Both the position numbers and the translations under genes were made by a program. The notes beneath the pieces were generated by a model. The model had not been told where the DNA came from. It made no database searches and worked only from the letters and a program-made list of their open reading frames with translations. From Mycolicibacterium parafortuitum (lineage in GTDB: Bacteria; Actinomycetota; Actinomycetes; Mycobacteriales; Mycobacteriaceae), in NCBI RefSeq assembly GCF_010725485.1, contig NZ_AP022598.1, positions 4,216,001 to 4,280,000 on the forward strand: 64,000 nt of DNA, written 5' to 3'. This document shows, in pieces, positions 19,432 to 31,519 of this stretch (position 1 is its first letter; every line of letters starts with the position of its first letter).

Positions 19432-19450
19432 ATAGGAAAGGCGAGCCTAA
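19432..19450 (+). promoter_or_regulatory. IdeR iron box overlapping the SD and start codon of the iron ABC operon
   Basis: The 19-mer ATAGGAAAGGCGAGCCTAA matches the mycobacterial IdeR consensus TTAGGTTAGGCTAACCTAA at 14 of 19 positions. Its AGGAAAGG is also the only ribosome binding site for the ATG at 19450, whose A is the last base of the box. IdeR with bound Fe2+ would therefore block the operon very close to its translation start. Confidence 0.8.
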
Positions 19451-20475
19451 TGTCGAAGTCGTTGACCCGGTTGGCCGCGATGTTCACCGCGGTGGCCGCG
19501 GCCGTCGCGCTGAGCGCGTGCGGATCCGAGCAGCAGTCCGATGAGAACAAGATCGTCGTGTATTCGGGTCGCAGCGAGGAGCTGGTCAAGCCGCTGATCG
19601 AGCAGTTCTCCACCGACACCGGCATCAAGGTCGAGGCGCGCTACGCCGGTTCGGGCGAGATGGCCGCGCAGCTGATCACCGAGGGGGACAAGTCCCCGGC
19701 CGATGTGTTCCTGTCCCAGGACGCCGGCGCACTGGGCGCGGTGGCCAAGGCGGGTCTGCTGGCTCCGATCGACGCCGAGACGCTCGCCGCGGTGCCGGCC
19801 CAGTACTCGGCGGCCGACGGCACGTGGGTCGGGGTGTCGGGCCGCGCCCGCGTCCTCGTCTACAACCCGACGCTGGCGCCGAATCCGCCGGACACCATCG
19901 ACGGACTGCTGGCTCCGGAGTGGAAGGGCAAGATCGGCTTCGCCCCGAGCAACGCATCCTGGCAGGCGTTCGTCACCGGGCTGCGGGTGCTGCGCGGTGA
20001 CGACGGTGCCGAGCAGTGGCTGCGCGCGTTCAAGGCGCAGGATCCGCAGGCCTTCGAGAACAACGTCGCCGTGCGCGACGCCGTGGACTCCGGCCAGGTC
20101 GCCCTGGGCCTGGTCAACCACTATTACCTCTACGAACTCATCCACGCCAAGGGCGCCGACGCCGTCGTCGCGCAGAACAAGTTCATGGCGCCCGGCGACC
20201 CCGGCGGCCTGGTCAACGTCGCCGGCGTGGGTGTGCTGAAGTCCGCCCCGAATCCCGAAGGCGCCCAGGCGTTCGCCGCCTATCTGGTCGGGGAGTCCGC
20301 GCAGAAGTACTTCGCGACCGAGACCGCCGAGTATCCGCTCGCGGCAGGTGTCGCCCCGTCGGCCGAGATGCCTCCGCTGGCCGACCTGCAGCCCCCGGCG
20401 GTCGACCTGTCCGACCTCGACGACCTCGAGGCCACCCAGGAGCTGCTGGTCAAGACCGGCCTCCTGACCAACTGA
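19450..20475 (+). CDS. Ferric iron ABC transporter, substrate-binding lipoprotein
   Basis: 341 residues. Signal peptide with lipobox LSAC at about 24-27, so the mature protein is lipid-anchored outside the membrane. The mature start 'KIVVYSGRSEELVKPLIEQF' and 'DVFLSQDAGALG' are typical of the FbpA/SfuA/FutA ferric-binding family; 'NHYYLYEL' near residue 225 contains the tandem tyrosines that bind Fe3+ in that family. The overlapping IdeR box supports iron over molybdate or sulfate. First gene of a three-gene operon; the permease starts 5 bp after its stop. Confidence 0.92.
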   Translation: MSKSLTRLAAMFTAVAAAVALSACGSEQQSDENKIVVYSGRSEELVKPLIEQFSTDTGIKVEARYAGSGEMAAQLITEGDKSPADVFLSQDAGALGAVAKAGLLAPIDAETLAAVPAQYSAADGTWVGVSGRARVLVYNPTLAPNPPDTIDGLLAPEWKGKIGFAPSNASWQAFVTGLRVLRGDDGAEQWLRAFKAQDPQAFENNVAVRDAVDSGQVALGLVNHYYLYELIHAKGADAVVAQNKFMAPGDPGGLVNVAGVGVLKSAPNPEGAQAFAAYLVGESAQKYFATETAEYPLAAGVAPSAEMPPLADLQPPAVDLSDLDDLEATQELLVKTGLLTN

Positions 20476-26136: not shown

Positions 26137-27072
26137 CTACGCGAGGAACAGTCGGTGCAGCTCGTTGAGCCACGGCAGCGCGAACGCGACCGTCGGAACC
26201 ACCAGCACGGCGGCCGCAGCAGCATATGCGCCCGCCGCCAGTATCCGGCTGTTGGGCTCGCCGCCCAGCCGGCGCACCCGCACCACGGTCGTCGGGCCGC
26301 CCGCGGCCAGCGCACCGCGCGGCGCCCGCCCCGACGCGCACGCGACGAGGGCACGGGCGAGCGGCGTGGGCCCTTCGGCGCGCACCGCGGCGTCGTCGGC
26401 GAGCAGTTCGATCAGCAGCCGGACCGCGTTGAGCGCGTGTGCGCTGCGCACGAACCGGGGGAAGGCCGCATGCACGGCGGTGAACATCTCCAGCACCAGG
26501 TCGTGGCGGGCCCGCAGGTGGGCGTTCTCGTGCTCCAGGATCGCCGAGACCTCGTTCGCAGACAGCGTGTTCAGCGCACCCTCGCTGACGACGACCCGAC
26601 TGCGCACCCCGGGCAGGCAGTAGGCGAGTGGTTCGGCGACGTCGAGGATCCGCAGTCCGCCGCGGGACCGTGGCCGGCGGCGATGACTGCCGACGAGGTC
26701 GACCACCATCCGGTGGTGGGCGCGACGGCGCCTGGTGGCGATCGCCACCCTGAGCACCGACACGATCAGCCGGGCACCGATGACCAGGGTGAGGACGAAG
26801 ACGACGACGTAGGCCGTCCACAGCGGCCAGCCCAGCATCGCGATCGAGCTGGCGAAGGTGGCGGTGGGCCGGCCGTCGGCGCCGGGCTCGAACAGGCGCG
26901 ACGCGATCGCGATGCCGGCCGAGAACGCCGACAACACCGCTGCCAGCGCGATCGCCTGCCATAGCACGATGGCGGCGCGGGGTGCGCGCAGCGGCCACGT
27001 GGCTCGCGCCAGCATCGCAGGCACCGGCCCCGAGAGGAGCAATGCGACGATCGCGAAGGCCAGCGCGGACAC
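26137..27072 (-). CDS. blaR: M56-family (BlaR1-like) membrane metalloprotease
   Basis: 311 residues; homologue of M. tuberculosis Rv1845c by context. Three hydrophobic segments lie in the N-terminal third and one at the C-terminus. The zinc-protease motif HENAH is at 181-185, with a downstream 'ELLADDAAV' as candidate third ligand. Unlike staphylococcal BlaR1 it has no penicillin-binding sensor domain, so the inducing signal must be sensed otherwise. The gene starts 14 bp after the blaI stop, as an operon; the expected substrate is the BlaI repressor. Confidence 0.88.
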   Translation of the reverse strand: MSALAFAIVALLLSGPVPAMLARATWPLRAPRAAIVLWQAIALAAVLSAFSAGIAIASRLFEPGADGRPTATFASSIAMLGWPLWTAYVVVFVLTLVIGARLIVSVLRVAIATRRRRAHHRMVVDLVGSHRRRPRSRGGLRILDVAEPLAYCLPGVRSRVVVSEGALNTLSANEVSAILEHENAHLRARHDLVLEMFTAVHAAFPRFVRSAHALNAVRLLIELLADDAAVRAEGPTPLARALVACASGRAPRGALAAGGPTTVVRVRRLGGEPNSRILAAGAYAAAAAVLVVPTVAFALPWLNELHRLFLA

Positions 27073-27086
27073 GCTTTAAGTGTCCC

Positions 27087-27503
27087 TCAGGCGGTACCGA
27101 AATCGCCAGCGGGTCGAGGTGACCGATGTTTGTCTTCCAACTCGGCGAGAGCGCGGCGCAGTGCCGCGGCCTCGTCAGCGCCCACCCGCTCGACGAAATG
27201 CACGAGCGCGGCCTCTCGGCTGCCGGAATCGGCGGCCTGATCCAGCGCGTCGACCATCAGGCCGGCGACCAGTTCGTCGCGGCCGTGGGTGGGTGCATAG
27301 CGGTGGGCGCGGTCGTCGCGGTGCTGCACGACGAGGTTCTTCTTCGCAAGCCGTTGCAGCACCGTCATGATCGTGGTGTAGGCGAGGTCGCGGCGCGCAG
27401 ACAGGGCCTCATGGACCTGACGCACGGTCTGAGGCTCACCCGAGGACCACAGGTGGTCCATCACGGAGCGCTCGAGCTCGCCGAGTCGAGTCAGCTTGGC
27501 CAT
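27087..27503 (-). CDS. blaI: BlaI/MecI-family transcriptional repressor
   Basis: 138 residues from ATG 27503, chosen for the AGGAGA ribosome binding site and the canonical start MAKLTRLGELERSVMDHLW. Winged-helix N-terminus (about 5-75; 'LAYTTIMTVLQRLAKKNLV' is the recognition region) and a C-terminal dimer/cleavage segment. In mycobacteria BlaI represses the beta-lactamase and some other genes and is released by BlaR proteolysis. The frame extends upstream to 27686 but that part includes the operator region. Rv1846c orthologue by synteny. Confidence 0.93.
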   Translation of the reverse strand: MAKLTRLGELERSVMDHLWSSGEPQTVRQVHEALSARRDLAYTTIMTVLQRLAKKNLVVQHRDDRAHRYAPTHGRDELVAGLMVDALDQAADSGSREAALVHFVERVGADEAAALRRALAELEDKHRSPRPAGDFGTA

Positions 27504-27539
27504 CTTCCGTTCATCTCCTGCCGACGGTAGGTCAAAGCG

Positions 27540-27567
27540 TACTACGGGATTACTACCGCGTGTCGTA
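27540..27567. promoter_or_regulatory. Candidate BlaI operator
   Basis: TACTAC occurs at 27540-27545 and again at 27551-27556; the second copy forms an imperfect palindrome, TACTAC-N5-GTCGTA (27551-27567). It is 37-64 bp upstream of the blaI start, where autoregulation is expected. The TACTA-like half-sites resemble BlaI-type operators, but I have not matched them against a published M. tuberculosis motif. Confidence 0.5.
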
Positions 27568-27696
27568 TGAGATTTCGTCGCTGGTCGGTGCGTCGAAACC
27601 CGCTTCTCCGAGATGCCAACGTCAGCACCGGTGTGAGTGCGTCCGCTTGGTCTTGTGAGTCCAGTCACAGCCTCTAGCCCGTTCATTGGCCATGAC

Positions 27697-27715
27697 TATA
27701 GTAAGGCTAACCTAA
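27697..27715 (+). promoter_or_regulatory. IdeR iron box and -10 of the FhuF-like gene
   Basis: The 3' twelve bases AGGCTAACCTAA are identical to the IdeR consensus; the whole 19-mer scores 15 of 19. TATAGT at 27697-27702 inside the box is a good -10 hexamer, so IdeR would sit directly on the promoter. The gene starts 34 bp downstream. Confidence 0.82.
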
Positions 27716-27748
27716 TTCGGTAAGAGCTACCCAGATCGCGAGGTGCCC

Positions 27749-28522
27749 ATGACGGTTGTCGTCGAGGATCCGCTCATCGCCAGTATGTCGATCGTGCGCG
27801 TGCTGCCCATCCACGAATCGAGCCGCCGGCTACGCGAGCTGTACCGCGAATGTCCGCGGGTCTACGGGGTGGCAGTGATGGGTGACCTGTCGCGGCGGCG
27901 CTGGTGGCCACTGGAGGAGATCCTCACGACCGACCGGCTGCAGCAGATGTTTGACGCGGGGATCGCCGAGACCGAGAGCCGCGCCGCGGTGGCCCAGCAG
28001 TTGGCCGCGACCTTCGCCCATGTCGTGGTCGGGCGCGTGACGCCGTTGTTGGCACTGGAGGGGCGGGCCTGGGATACCGGTCTGGAGAACCTGTGGGTGC
28101 ATGTCGACTCCGAAGGTGCGATCGACTGGGTCGGGGTGGTGGACCCGACGCTGCGCGCGCTGCCCGACGATCCGTACGTCGCCGAGTGCCGGGTTTCCGG
28201 GGGTGGGGGTCGGCACGGCATCGTCGCGCTGCCCAGCGAGGCGGCGTTGACGACCTGGGTCGCCCATCGCAGCCACCGCGCGCTGGGGCCGCTGTTCGCC
28301 AAGCTCGCCACGGTCAGTGACGGGGCGATGTCGGTGGCGGCGATGTGGCACATCGTCGGCGGGGCGGTCGTCAACGCGGCCACCCAGGTGCCGTTGCTCG
28401 CCCACGCCAGCGAAGTCGTCAGCATGCGCCGCGGCCAGGCGGTGCTGGACGCTTTCGTCGGCTTCGGGCTGCCGGTGCGCGGCGTATCCCGGATGAGTTC
28501 CACGAAGGTCTTGATTAATTAG
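27749..28522 (+). CDS. FhuF-like iron-related protein, IdeR-controlled
   Basis: 257 residues from ATG 27749, the first ATG after the iron box; a GTG at 27743 is an alternative. It resembles the FhuF/ferric reductase-like family in the C-terminal half ('AAMWHIVGGAVVNAATQVPLL', then 'RRGQAVLDAFVGFGL'). The terminal Cys-rich 2Fe-2S motif of classical FhuF is absent; only two Cys occur in the whole protein. The role is therefore likely siderophore- or iron-related but perhaps not reductive. The stop codon TAG lies inside the next IdeR palindrome. No counterpart sits between blaI and Rv1847 in M. tuberculosis. Confidence 0.65.
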   Translation: MTVVVEDPLIASMSIVRVLPIHESSRRLRELYRECPRVYGVAVMGDLSRRRWWPLEEILTTDRLQQMFDAGIAETESRAAVAQQLAATFAHVVVGRVTPLLALEGRAWDTGLENLWVHVDSEGAIDWVGVVDPTLRALPDDPYVAECRVSGGGGRHGIVALPSEAALTTWVAHRSHRALGPLFAKLATVSDGAMSVAAMWHIVGGAVVNAATQVPLLAHASEVVSMRRGQAVLDAFVGFGLPVRGVSRMSSTKVLIN

Positions 28523-28540
28523 GCAAGCCTTGCCTATCCT
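28511..28540 (+). promoter_or_regulatory. IdeR-controlled promoter of the MrsI-like small RNA
   Basis: A -35 TTGATT (28511-28516) and a -10 TATCCT (28535-28540) are separated by 18 bp. The spacer and -10 are covered by a 19-bp IdeR-like box (28519-28537) whose core TAGGCAAG-C-CTTGCCTA is a perfect palindrome. It matches the IdeR consensus at 13 of 19 positions. Expected transcription start about 28546-28548. Confidence 0.8.
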
Positions 28541-28546
28541 ATTGGA

Positions 28547-28668
28547 GTCGGGGTTGATCCGAAGTTTCGGAACCAACGGACCGCGCCGGAGTCCTGAGGG
28601 CTGCAGAGACCCCCGGTCCGACCGATGGAAGGGCCCCACGCCGCGTGCGTGGGGCCCTTCTTCTTTTT
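28547..28668 (+). ncRNA. mrsI: MrsI-like iron-regulated small RNA
   Basis: About 122 nt between the IdeR-boxed promoter and a strong terminator, with no reading frame. Predicted hairpins: CCGAA/TTCGG (28559-28563/28566-28570) extended by GGTT/AACC; a stem GGACCG/CGGTCC (28578-28583/28614-28619); and the terminator. The place, just before the Rv1847-like thioesterase and downstream of the blaI locus, corresponds to ncRv11846 (MrsI) of M. tuberculosis, an IdeR-controlled RNA of the iron-sparing response. Name given on synteny and regulation; the seed was not aligned. The start is inferred from the -10. Confidence 0.78.
28628..28668 (+). terminator. Rho-independent terminator of the small RNA
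   Basis: GAAGGGCCCCACGC (28628-28641) and GCGTGGGGCCCTTC (28647-28660) form a perfect 14-bp stem with a 5-base loop, followed directly by TTCTTTTT. This is the only textbook intrinsic terminator with a T-run noted in the window. Confidence 0.92.
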
Positions 28669-28723: not shown

Positions 28724-29125
28724 GTGAGCGAAGTTCCTGAGGGCCTCGGCGACGGATTCGACAGACAACTCGGGTTGACGTACCTGGAGATGACGCCCGA
28801 CGGTGGGCGCGCCGAGCTCGAGATCACCGAAAAACTGTTGCAGCCGTGGGGGATCGTGCACGGCGGCGTGTACTGCGCGGTGATCGAGAGCATGGCCAGT
28901 GTGTCCGGGCACGTGTGGCTGTCCCGCAACGGCGGCGGCACGGTGGTCGGGGTGAACAACAACACCGACTTCCTGCGCGCGATCGGGTCCGGGACCGTCA
29001 CCGCGACCTCCGTTCCGATCCACCGCGGCCGGCGCCAGCAGCTGTGGTTGATCACGATCACCGATGAGGCCGGCAAGACGGTGGCGAGGGGACAGGTGCG
29101 CCTGCAGAACATGCCCGACGCATAG
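28724..29125 (+). CDS. Hotdog-fold thioesterase (Rv1847-like)
   Basis: 133 residues from GTG 28724 (VSEVPEGLGDGFD); the frame extends upstream into the small-RNA terminator and is not coding there. PaaI-type hotdog thioesterase core: 'QPWGIVHGGVYCAVIESMAS' carries the family HGG motif, and 'VGVNNNTDFLRAI' follows. It would hydrolyse an acyl-CoA, substrate unknown. It lies 46 bp before ureA, as in M. tuberculosis, where Rv1847 precedes the urease cluster. Confidence 0.87.
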   Translation: MSEVPEGLGDGFDRQLGLTYLEMTPDGGRAELEITEKLLQPWGIVHGGVYCAVIESMASVSGHVWLSRNGGGTVVGVNNNTDFLRAIGSGTVTATSVPIHRGRRQQLWLITITDEAGKTVARGQVRLQNMPDA

Positions 29126-29801: not shown

Positions 29802-31519
29802 CGCAGCTGCCCCGGACCCACTACGCGGCGCTGTTCGGCCCGACGACCGGCGACCGCATCCGGCTGGCCGACACCGACCTGTTCATCGAGATCACCGAGG
29901 ACCGCAGCGGCGGACCCGGGTTGGCCGGCGACGAAGCGGTCTTCGGCGGCGGCAAGGTGCTGCGCGAATCGATGGGTCAGTCGCGCGCGACCCGCGCCGA
30001 CGGCGCCCCCGACACCGTCATCACCGGCGCGGTGATCCTCGACCATTGGGGAATCATCAAGGCCGACATCGGTATTCGCGACGGTCGCATCGTCGGGATC
30101 GGTAAGGCCGGCAACCCCGACATCATGTCCGGTGTGCACCCCGACCTGGTGGTGGGCCCGTCGACGGAGATCATCGCCGGCAACGGGCGAATCGTCACCG
30201 CGGGTGCGATCGACTGCCACGTGCACCTGATCTGCCCGCAGATCATGGAGGAGGCCCTCGGCGGCGGCATCACCACGATCGTCGCCGGCGGTACCGGCCC
30301 GGCGGAGGGCAGCAAGGCTACGACCGTGACCCCCGGCGCCTGGCATCTGGCCCGCATGTTGGAGGCGCTCGACACCTGGCCGATGAACGTCGCGCTGCTG
30401 GGCAAGGGCAACACGGTCAGCAGCGAGGCGATGTGGGAGCAGTTGCGCGGCGGCGCAGCGGGTTTCAAGCTGCACGAGGACTGGGGGACAACCCCGGCCG
30501 CGATCGACGCCTGCCTGACGGTGTCGGAGGCCGCCGGCGTGCAGGTCAACATCCACACCGACACGCTCAACGAGGCCGGCTTCGTCGAGGACACCCTCGC
30601 CGCGATCAAGGGCCGCTCGATCCACGCGTATCACACCGAGGGCGCGGGCGGCGGACACGCACCCGACATCATCACTGTCGCAAGCCATCCCAACGTGCTG
30701 CCGAGTTCCACCAACCCGACACGGCCGCATACGGTCAACACCCTCGACGAGCACCTCGACATGTTGATGGTGTGCCACCATCTCAACCCCCGCGTACCGG
30801 AGGATCTCGCGTTCGCCGAGAGCCGGATCCGGCCGTCCACGATCGCCGCCGAGGACCTTCTGCACGACATCGGCGCGATCTCGATGATCGGCAGCGACGC
30901 ACAGGCGATGGGCCGCATCGGCGAGGTGGTGATGCGGACCTGGCAGACCGCGCACGTGATGAAGCGCCGCCGCGGATTCCTGCCGGGGGACACCCGCGCC
31001 GACAACACCCGCGCCCAGCGCTACGTCGCGAAGTACACGATCTGCCCGGCCGTCGCCCACGGCCTCGACCGCGAGATCGGGTCGGTCGAGGTCGGCAAGC
31101 TCGCTGACCTCGTGCTGTGGGAGCCGGCGTTCTTCGGGGTGCGCCCGCATGTCGTCGTCAAGGGCGGCATGATCGCGTGGGCCGCGATGGGCGACGCGAA
31201 CGCGTCGATCCCGACTCCTCAGCCGGTGCTGCCGCGTCCGATGTTCGGGGCCGCGCCCGCCGCGGCGGCGAGCACGTCCGTGCATTTCGTTGCGCCGCAG
31301 GCGATCGAGGACGGGTTGGCCGATCGAATCGCGGTCAACCGCAAGCTGGTCGCGGTCGGTAACGTGCGCGGCGTCGGTAAGGCGCAGATGCCGCTCAACG
31401 ACGCGACGCCGGACATCCAGGTGGATCCGGACACCTTCACCGTGCGCATCGACGGCGAGGTGTGGCAGGAGCAGCCCGCCGCCGAACTGCCGATGGCGCA
31501 GCGATACTTCCTGTTCTAG
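29798..31519 (+). CDS. ureC: Urease alpha (catalytic) subunit
   Basis: 573 residues. Hydrolyses urea to ammonia and carbamate at a di-nickel centre. The carbamylated Lys lies in [12 protein letters not shown]; metal-binding histidines appear in '[11 protein letters not shown]' and in '[10 protein letters not shown]'; the active-site flap His is in MVCHHLNP. All are intact, so the enzyme should be active. Coupled to ureB by a 4-base overlap. Confidence 0.98.

Follow-up and report, generated by a model that had tools for sequence, protein, structure and literature searches.

Iron-repressed small RNAs that lower iron-using or iron-storing proteins are well described in bacteria, with RyhB of enterobacteria and PrrF as examples, and Gram-positives have iron-sparing RNAs of their own in IsrR (staphylococci) and FsrA (Bacillus). 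MrsI is a further RNA of this kind, and its source paper is reportedly that of Gerrick et al. (2018, PNAS). According to the available text of PMC9410917, RyhB works like MrsI in being an iron-repressed small RNA, but it is controlled by Fur and has neither synteny nor sequence in common with MrsI; IsrR and FsrA are also Fur-controlled and are unrelated to MrsI in sequence and place. The reports on MrsI, in their accessible portions, concern M. tuberculosis and M. smegmatis (PMC8628891, PMC11188477, PMC9410917, PMC7029489). The RNA maps to 2096766-2096867 in M. tuberculosis in the text available of PMC8628891, and the published molecule carries its seed in a 7-nt apical loop in that of PMC11188477.

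The locus described here lies in a window of 64,000 nucleotides (the whole stretch of DNA that was analysed). We put the probability at about 0.88 that it is mrsI, encoding the MrsI (ncRv11846) ortholog of a fast-growing mycobacterial relative of Mycolicibacterium parafortuitum, which would be repressed by IdeR and would act on the leader of bfrA. An earlier note on this DNA had proposed an IdeR-type small-RNA gene of the MrsI kind before an Rv1847-like gene, a proposal well supported by the synteny, the box, the terminator and the 7-base apical loop. Its features and those of its neighbours are as follows:

26137-27072, minus strand: M48/M56-type peptidase gene, to the left of the MrsI locus.
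27087-27686, minus strand: BlaI-type repressor gene at the position of Rv1846c (Pfam Penicillinase_R, E 2.5e-29).
27743-28522, plus strand: upstream FhuF-like 'iron reductase' gene of 259 amino acids, 96% identical to a Mycolicibacterium parafortuitum protein of that name.
28511-28516, plus strand: -35-like hexamer TTGATT, read from the sequence and under the threshold of a generic promoter scan.
28519-28537, plus strand: IdeR-like box TTAGGCAAGCCTTGCCTAT over the promoter, a candidate binding site with one mismatch to TTAGGNNAGNCTNNCCTAA and of the same type as in relatives.
28535-28540, plus strand: -10-like hexamer TATCCT, read from the sequence and overlapping the box.
28547-28668, plus strand: predicted MrsI RNA of ~122 nt, starting ~6 bases past the -10 and ending with the T-run (fold z -3.91).
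28578-28619, plus strand: core hairpin, the most conserved part of the RNA (30-locus alignment, covariation, model R2).
28597-28603, plus strand: apical loop AGGGCTG, the proposed seed, unpaired in the predicted fold, identical in 142/142 copies and complementary to bfrA leaders.
28628-28660, plus strand: terminator stem-loop of 14 perfect pairs with compensatory changes in relatives, followed by TTCTTTTT (28661-28668).
28724-29125, plus strand: Rv1847 ortholog, a hotdog thioesterase and the conserved downstream neighbour (Pfam 4HBT; PDB 3s4k, Rv1847, E 1.3e-48).

The Rv1847 ortholog is followed by reading frames that we take to be the urease genes. In order, strand and neighbours the locus follows MrsI of M. 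tuberculosis and M. smegmatis, lying before Rv1847, on the same strand and after a BlaI-type gene, and it shares with the published RNA an IdeR site at the promoter (here a sequence match) and a 7-nt apical loop, as far as the portions available of PMC8628891, PMC11188477 and PMC7029489 describe them. The published target bfrA is a predicted one here, with strong pairing across the genus and a weaker variant of the site in the source genome. The published length of ~100 nt with a terminator (PMC8628891, text available in part) is also close to that in named relatives, where the RNA measures 102-103 nt in 7 of 9 and 106 nt in one, the ninth being unmeasurable. Unlike in M. tuberculosis and M. 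smegmatis, a FhuF-like gene here separates blaI from the RNA; the predicted RNA is ~20 nt longer at its 5' side than the published one, the reported hypF target finds no support, and the bfrA leader of the source genome has GCCCTCGG rather than CAGCCCT.

Letter-by-letter examination of the promoter region bore out the elements named in the earlier note, namely the -35, the -10 at a spacing of 18 bases, the IdeR-like box and its 17-bp palindrome, the last being a perfect 8+1+8 palindrome with one central base at 28520-28536. The two hexamers match at 8 of 12 positions, and a generic promoter scan with a cut-off of 9 found nothing at threshold for mrsI. If up to 3 mismatches are allowed, TTAGGNNAGNCTNNCCTAA is matched 3 times in the window against 0.24 expected, a count reached by 0 of 100 shuffles; with at most 1 mismatch there are 3 such places in the 6.04 Mb genome, the mrsI box being one of them. 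At up to 3 mismatches the whole-genome scan for TTAGGNNAGNCTNNCCTAA gave no enrichment (30 matches per strand vs 70 for a backward control).

The palindrome had previously been considered unusual for its GGCAAG half-sites, and a different iron threshold in the host species had been suggested. It is instead an ordinary mrsI-type box: the commonest form is TTAGGGCAGCCTTGCCTA, in 90 of 151 cases, and the form in the window, TTAGGCAAGCCTTGCCTA, comes next with 23, the 151 being loop-bearing stretches with a pattern-matching box in the fetched loci, with some genomes counted repeatedly. Since the window carries the usual type of box, a species-specific iron threshold is unsupported, and no feature of the box singles out the host species. 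What mrsI boxes have in common is that their outer repeats are intact and their inner repeats altered. In the accessible part of PMC8464063, the IdeR of Saccharopolyspora has an apparent KD of ~45 nM for the consensus and of ~128 nM when each repeat has its two As altered; a somewhat weaker IdeR site is plausible for the whole class of mrsI boxes. A box in this position, across the promoter, is consistent with repression by IdeR. On this point the available portions of PMC8628891 and PMC9410917 are worded differently, one having MrsI induced and the other down-regulated by IdeR.

The FhuF-like gene runs into this promoter, with its stop codon TAG (28520-28522) falling inside the mrsI box. Pfam and NCBIfam gave no match for its protein, and the gene has an IdeR-like box of its own at 27697-27715. 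The overlapping stop codon and the separate box would both suit an RNA processed from the FhuF-like mRNA at its 3' end, with no promoter of its own. Among the best 80 named Rv1847 loci, however, the FhuF-like gene is present in only 6 (the BlaI-type gene in 76) and is therefore missing there in most of those relatives, and the arrangement of promoter and box is kept where it is missing. We therefore regard processing from the FhuF-like mRNA as very improbable.

The predicted RNA consists of a 5' hairpin, the core hairpin and the terminator, the first of these within a segment whose length differs from one relative to another. The ~122 nt and three hairpins described earlier are thus recovered in the prediction, but the accompanying statement that no frame crosses them is not, as 41 codons from 28548 onward form one open frame, which includes a TTG at 28554. 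Folding, which the earlier note had also suggested, gave a z of -3.91 for 28547-28668 with 0 of 200 shuffles equally stable; this stability is carried by the terminator, and 28541-28625 alone has a z of -0.03 and the core alone -1.12. Fold stability by itself is weak evidence for an RNA. The terminator was confirmed in its letters as the 14-bp perfect stem with T-run that had been noted, its arms 28628-28641 and 28647-28660 enclosing the loop CGCGT and being followed by TTCTTTTT; nine of its stem pairs show compensatory changes among 27 loci. A generic terminator scan found 1 terminator vs 0.8 expected. An Rfam 15 search of the window matched no family at the MrsI RNA, and the RyhB family model had no match in the window at the gathering score.

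The strongest evidence for the locus being real is comparative. A 186-base query matches 130 of the 148 genomes of the genus, a few of the matches being to the terminator only. The core covariance model finds MrsI in 62 of the best 80 named Rv1847 loci of the search, a set in which M. tuberculosis and M. smegmatis are not included; a pattern search covering up to 520 bases upstream finds it in 61, the 62nd, found by the model only, lying further upstream. The box is present in 60 of the 61 pattern-found loci, and the remaining one is cut by a contig end. Named species bearing MrsI include M. szulgai, M. simiae, M. gastri, M. gordonae and M. genavense. The alignment proposed in the earlier note was made with other relatives in place of the two published species, whose MrsI was compared by description only, and it shows the core and the loop to be conserved.

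Across the 30-locus alignment CGGACCGNGCCGGAGTCCTGAGGGCTGCAGAGACYCCCGGTCC is almost invariant, and the piece from promoter to core varies in length, with 18 to 46 bases between box and core. This pattern bears on the frame from TTG 28554, which is open across the core and could in principle belong to a small protein. A coding frame over mrsI was rejected on three grounds: the part before the core changes length, substitutions within the core are matched on the opposite side of the stem, and no base of the loop varies. A small-protein gene is scarcely credible.

In 34 diverse cores 93.9% of pair cells are standard and two-sided changes are seen in 6 of 14 pairs, neither value being reached in any of 500 shuffles. 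The loop AGGGCTG is identical in 142/142 model-found copies (from a model-based alignment of 62 named loci and 80 others, two sets that may share genomes). Model R2 leans to this loop because the rows of its alignment, A2, were chosen by a pattern that contains the loop letters; blastn and model R1 did not demand the loop. Around the fixed loop the closing stem takes several forms, CTG/CAG in 132 copies, CAG/CTG in 7, CCG/CGG in 2 and a broken CTG/CCG in 1 (the decayed locus L138). An alternative hairpin that would hide the seed, AGUCC-UGA-GGGCU, has the lowest energy of the folds predicted for M. simiae and M. persicum; the open loop is favoured because its closing stem shows compensatory changes. 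The parts of the locus, their conservation, these compensatory changes, the synteny and the complementarity of the loop to bfrA leaders can all be read directly from the sequences.

The 18 loci without MrsI among the best 80 named ones include all 11 from Mycolicibacter. Four MrsI-lacking genomes (L240, L247, L249, L250) have a trace of the core resembling CTGAGGGTCTGCTGCGACCC or CTGAGGGTCTGCTRCGACCC and no IdeR box, as if an mrsI gene were decaying there. In L138, from a genome of 3.27 Mb, the core, box and terminator of mrsI look degraded, and another small genome (G114, 3.3 Mb) gave no match to MrsI or Rv1847 and has bfrA. In M. kyorinense DSM 45166 (L197) the interval from the FhuF-like gene to Rv1847 is missing the stretch with the box and core, which strain E861 (L185) has; the difference is either a natural deletion or an assembly fault.

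Candidate targets were examined through the complement of the loop. The bfrA gene of the source genome lies outside the window, at contig position 4287474. We took leaders from 50 of 58 genomes with bfr (46 MrsI-bearing and 2 MrsI-lacking, with L101 and L103 dropped for a wrong start codon) and added 10 further MrsI-lacking ones to reach 12; several genomes have two bfr genes, of which only one was used each. In three genomes with two bacterioferritin genes (L098, L099, L102) the fetched copy has a different leader without a loop-complementary site. Of the 46 MrsI-bearing genomes, 17 have the motif CAGCC[CT]T at -45 to -12 of bfrA (0.2 expected), compared with 0 of the 12 MrsI-lacking ones (Fisher p 0.012, which is not over independent cases because the 12 genomes are mostly similar). 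Where relatives carry CAGCCCT or CAGCCTT, its usual place is 24 to 28 bases ahead of the start codon, immediately preceding the ribosome-binding site.

The exact motif is absent in 29 of the 46 MrsI-bearing genomes, the source genome among them; the predicted duplex with its own bfrA leader is -19.6 kcal/mol (two sets of 300 shuffles of that leader gave p values of 0.007 and 0.020). On 45 distinct leaders, one duplicate having been dropped, the real loop beats 300 of 300 scrambled loops, with a mean of -14.93 vs -11.07 kcal/mol. Scrambles were as good as the real loop in 85 of 300 cases on leaders of MrsI-lacking genomes, in 158 of 300 at the bfrA coding start and in 191 of 300 further upstream.

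No such signal was seen for hypF, where direct pairing near the start was the only form tested: the motif is in 0 of 30 loci, 156 of 300 scrambles are as good as the real loop, and the start of the source genome's own hypF has no site. We therefore set hypF aside as a conserved target; it is a reported target and not a defining feature of MrsI orthology. A search for new targets by exact CAGCCCTCA in the source genome gave 16 sites (10 forward, 6 reverse; 12 and 15 in the control), one being the mrsI locus itself and none being convincing.

We infer that mrsI is transcribed, that IdeR binds its box and represses it, and that the RNA affects bfrA. In this scheme Fe-loaded IdeR would occupy the box over the promoter when iron is sufficient and block transcription. 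Under iron starvation IdeR would leave, and an RNA of ~122 nt ending at the terminator would be made. Its core hairpin would display AGGGCUG, and this loop would pair with the leaders of mRNAs, the bacterioferritin mRNA (bfrA) among them, at a site immediately 5' of the ribosome-binding site; pairing there may reduce the iron-storage protein and so spare iron.

Model R2 (core only, E ≤0.001) finds MrsI in 215 of 301 genomes and in 19 of the 31 genera of the family (in the GTDB sense), with two matches in 2 of the 215 genomes and one in the rest. A tally by model R1 (258 of 301 genomes, 30 of 31 genera) was set aside because matches to the terminator only can reach that model. Genus g30 is reached weakly by R2 (best 7.5e-5), and its locus L350 has the loop, a box-like sequence and an Rv1847 homolog. 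An order-wide sample of 397 genomes gave 62 matches at E ≤0.01 under stricter filters by which weak matches were lost, of which 61 belong to the family and a single weak one (7.2e-4) lies outside it. Thirteen other genera gave 15 loci, all of them with the Rv1847 homolog downstream, and upstream there is a FhuF-like gene in 8 and a BlaI-type gene in 7 (both in one locus and neither in another); IdeR-like boxes of varied form were seen in these loci by eye and were not counted. Among 27 bfr leaders from other genera CAGCCCT is found in g11 (3/3) and g20 (2/2) and CAGCCTT in g2 (1/2); 21 of the 27 have no site, and bfr was rejected as a general target beyond the genus.

The constant Rv1847 neighbour, at a short distance and on the same strand, also raises the reading that the element acts in cis on the Rv1847-urease genes as their leader or attenuator, its iron-controlled transcript either stopping at the terminator or reading through into the thioesterase gene. 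Against this, the fixed loop and its compensating stem are complementary to bfrA leaders and not to the Rv1847 leader, on which 276 of 300 scrambled loops are as good as the real one; a strong terminator follows the core; and the published MrsI is an independent trans-acting transcript in the portions available of PMC8628891 and PMC11188477. A purely cis-acting leader is thus unlikely, and the RNA could act both in cis and in trans.

The distribution suggests that MrsI is older and wider than the mycobacteria alone. A literature search returned no title on MrsI outside mycobacteria, a weak result with most subscription papers beyond its coverage. We think it likely that MrsI did not originate in mycobacteria but is ancestral to the whole family, as an iron-sparing RNA usually present in one copy, with the cassette of box, core, terminator and Rv1847 homolog kept in at least 12 other genera, the core in 18 and the loop AGGGCUG unchanged. 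Its targets would have been rewired, bfr sites being present in some genera only, and both the RNA and its bfrA site would have decayed in the Mycolicibacter lineage.

As a single gene the mrsI described here is ordinary, and it is more interesting as a member of a family-wide RNA with a fixed loop; the range, the fixed loop and the bfrA link are useful additions to what is known of MrsI. Together, the fixed loop, the compensating stem, the presence in many genera and a bfrA site unseen where the RNA is absent make a single case into a family open to comparative tests. Targets can be predicted from the seed of the family, its covariance model covers an RNA unmatched by Rfam 15 in the window, and the mechanism could be studied in harmless fast growers.

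Elsewhere in the window the sole Rfam model at gathering score is RF02514 (5_ureB_sRNA), which scores 51.4 bits, against a gathering value of 40, at 29960-30251 on the minus strand, in antisense orientation to the beginning of the gene for the large urease subunit; this may be a true antisense RNA or mere similarity of coding sequence. Within 19432-20475 an IdeR-like box with 2 mismatches immediately precedes the gene of an extracellular solute-binding protein (Pfam SBP_bac_6, E 1.1e-27), which is followed by a permease-like frame and probably belongs to an iron ABC transporter.
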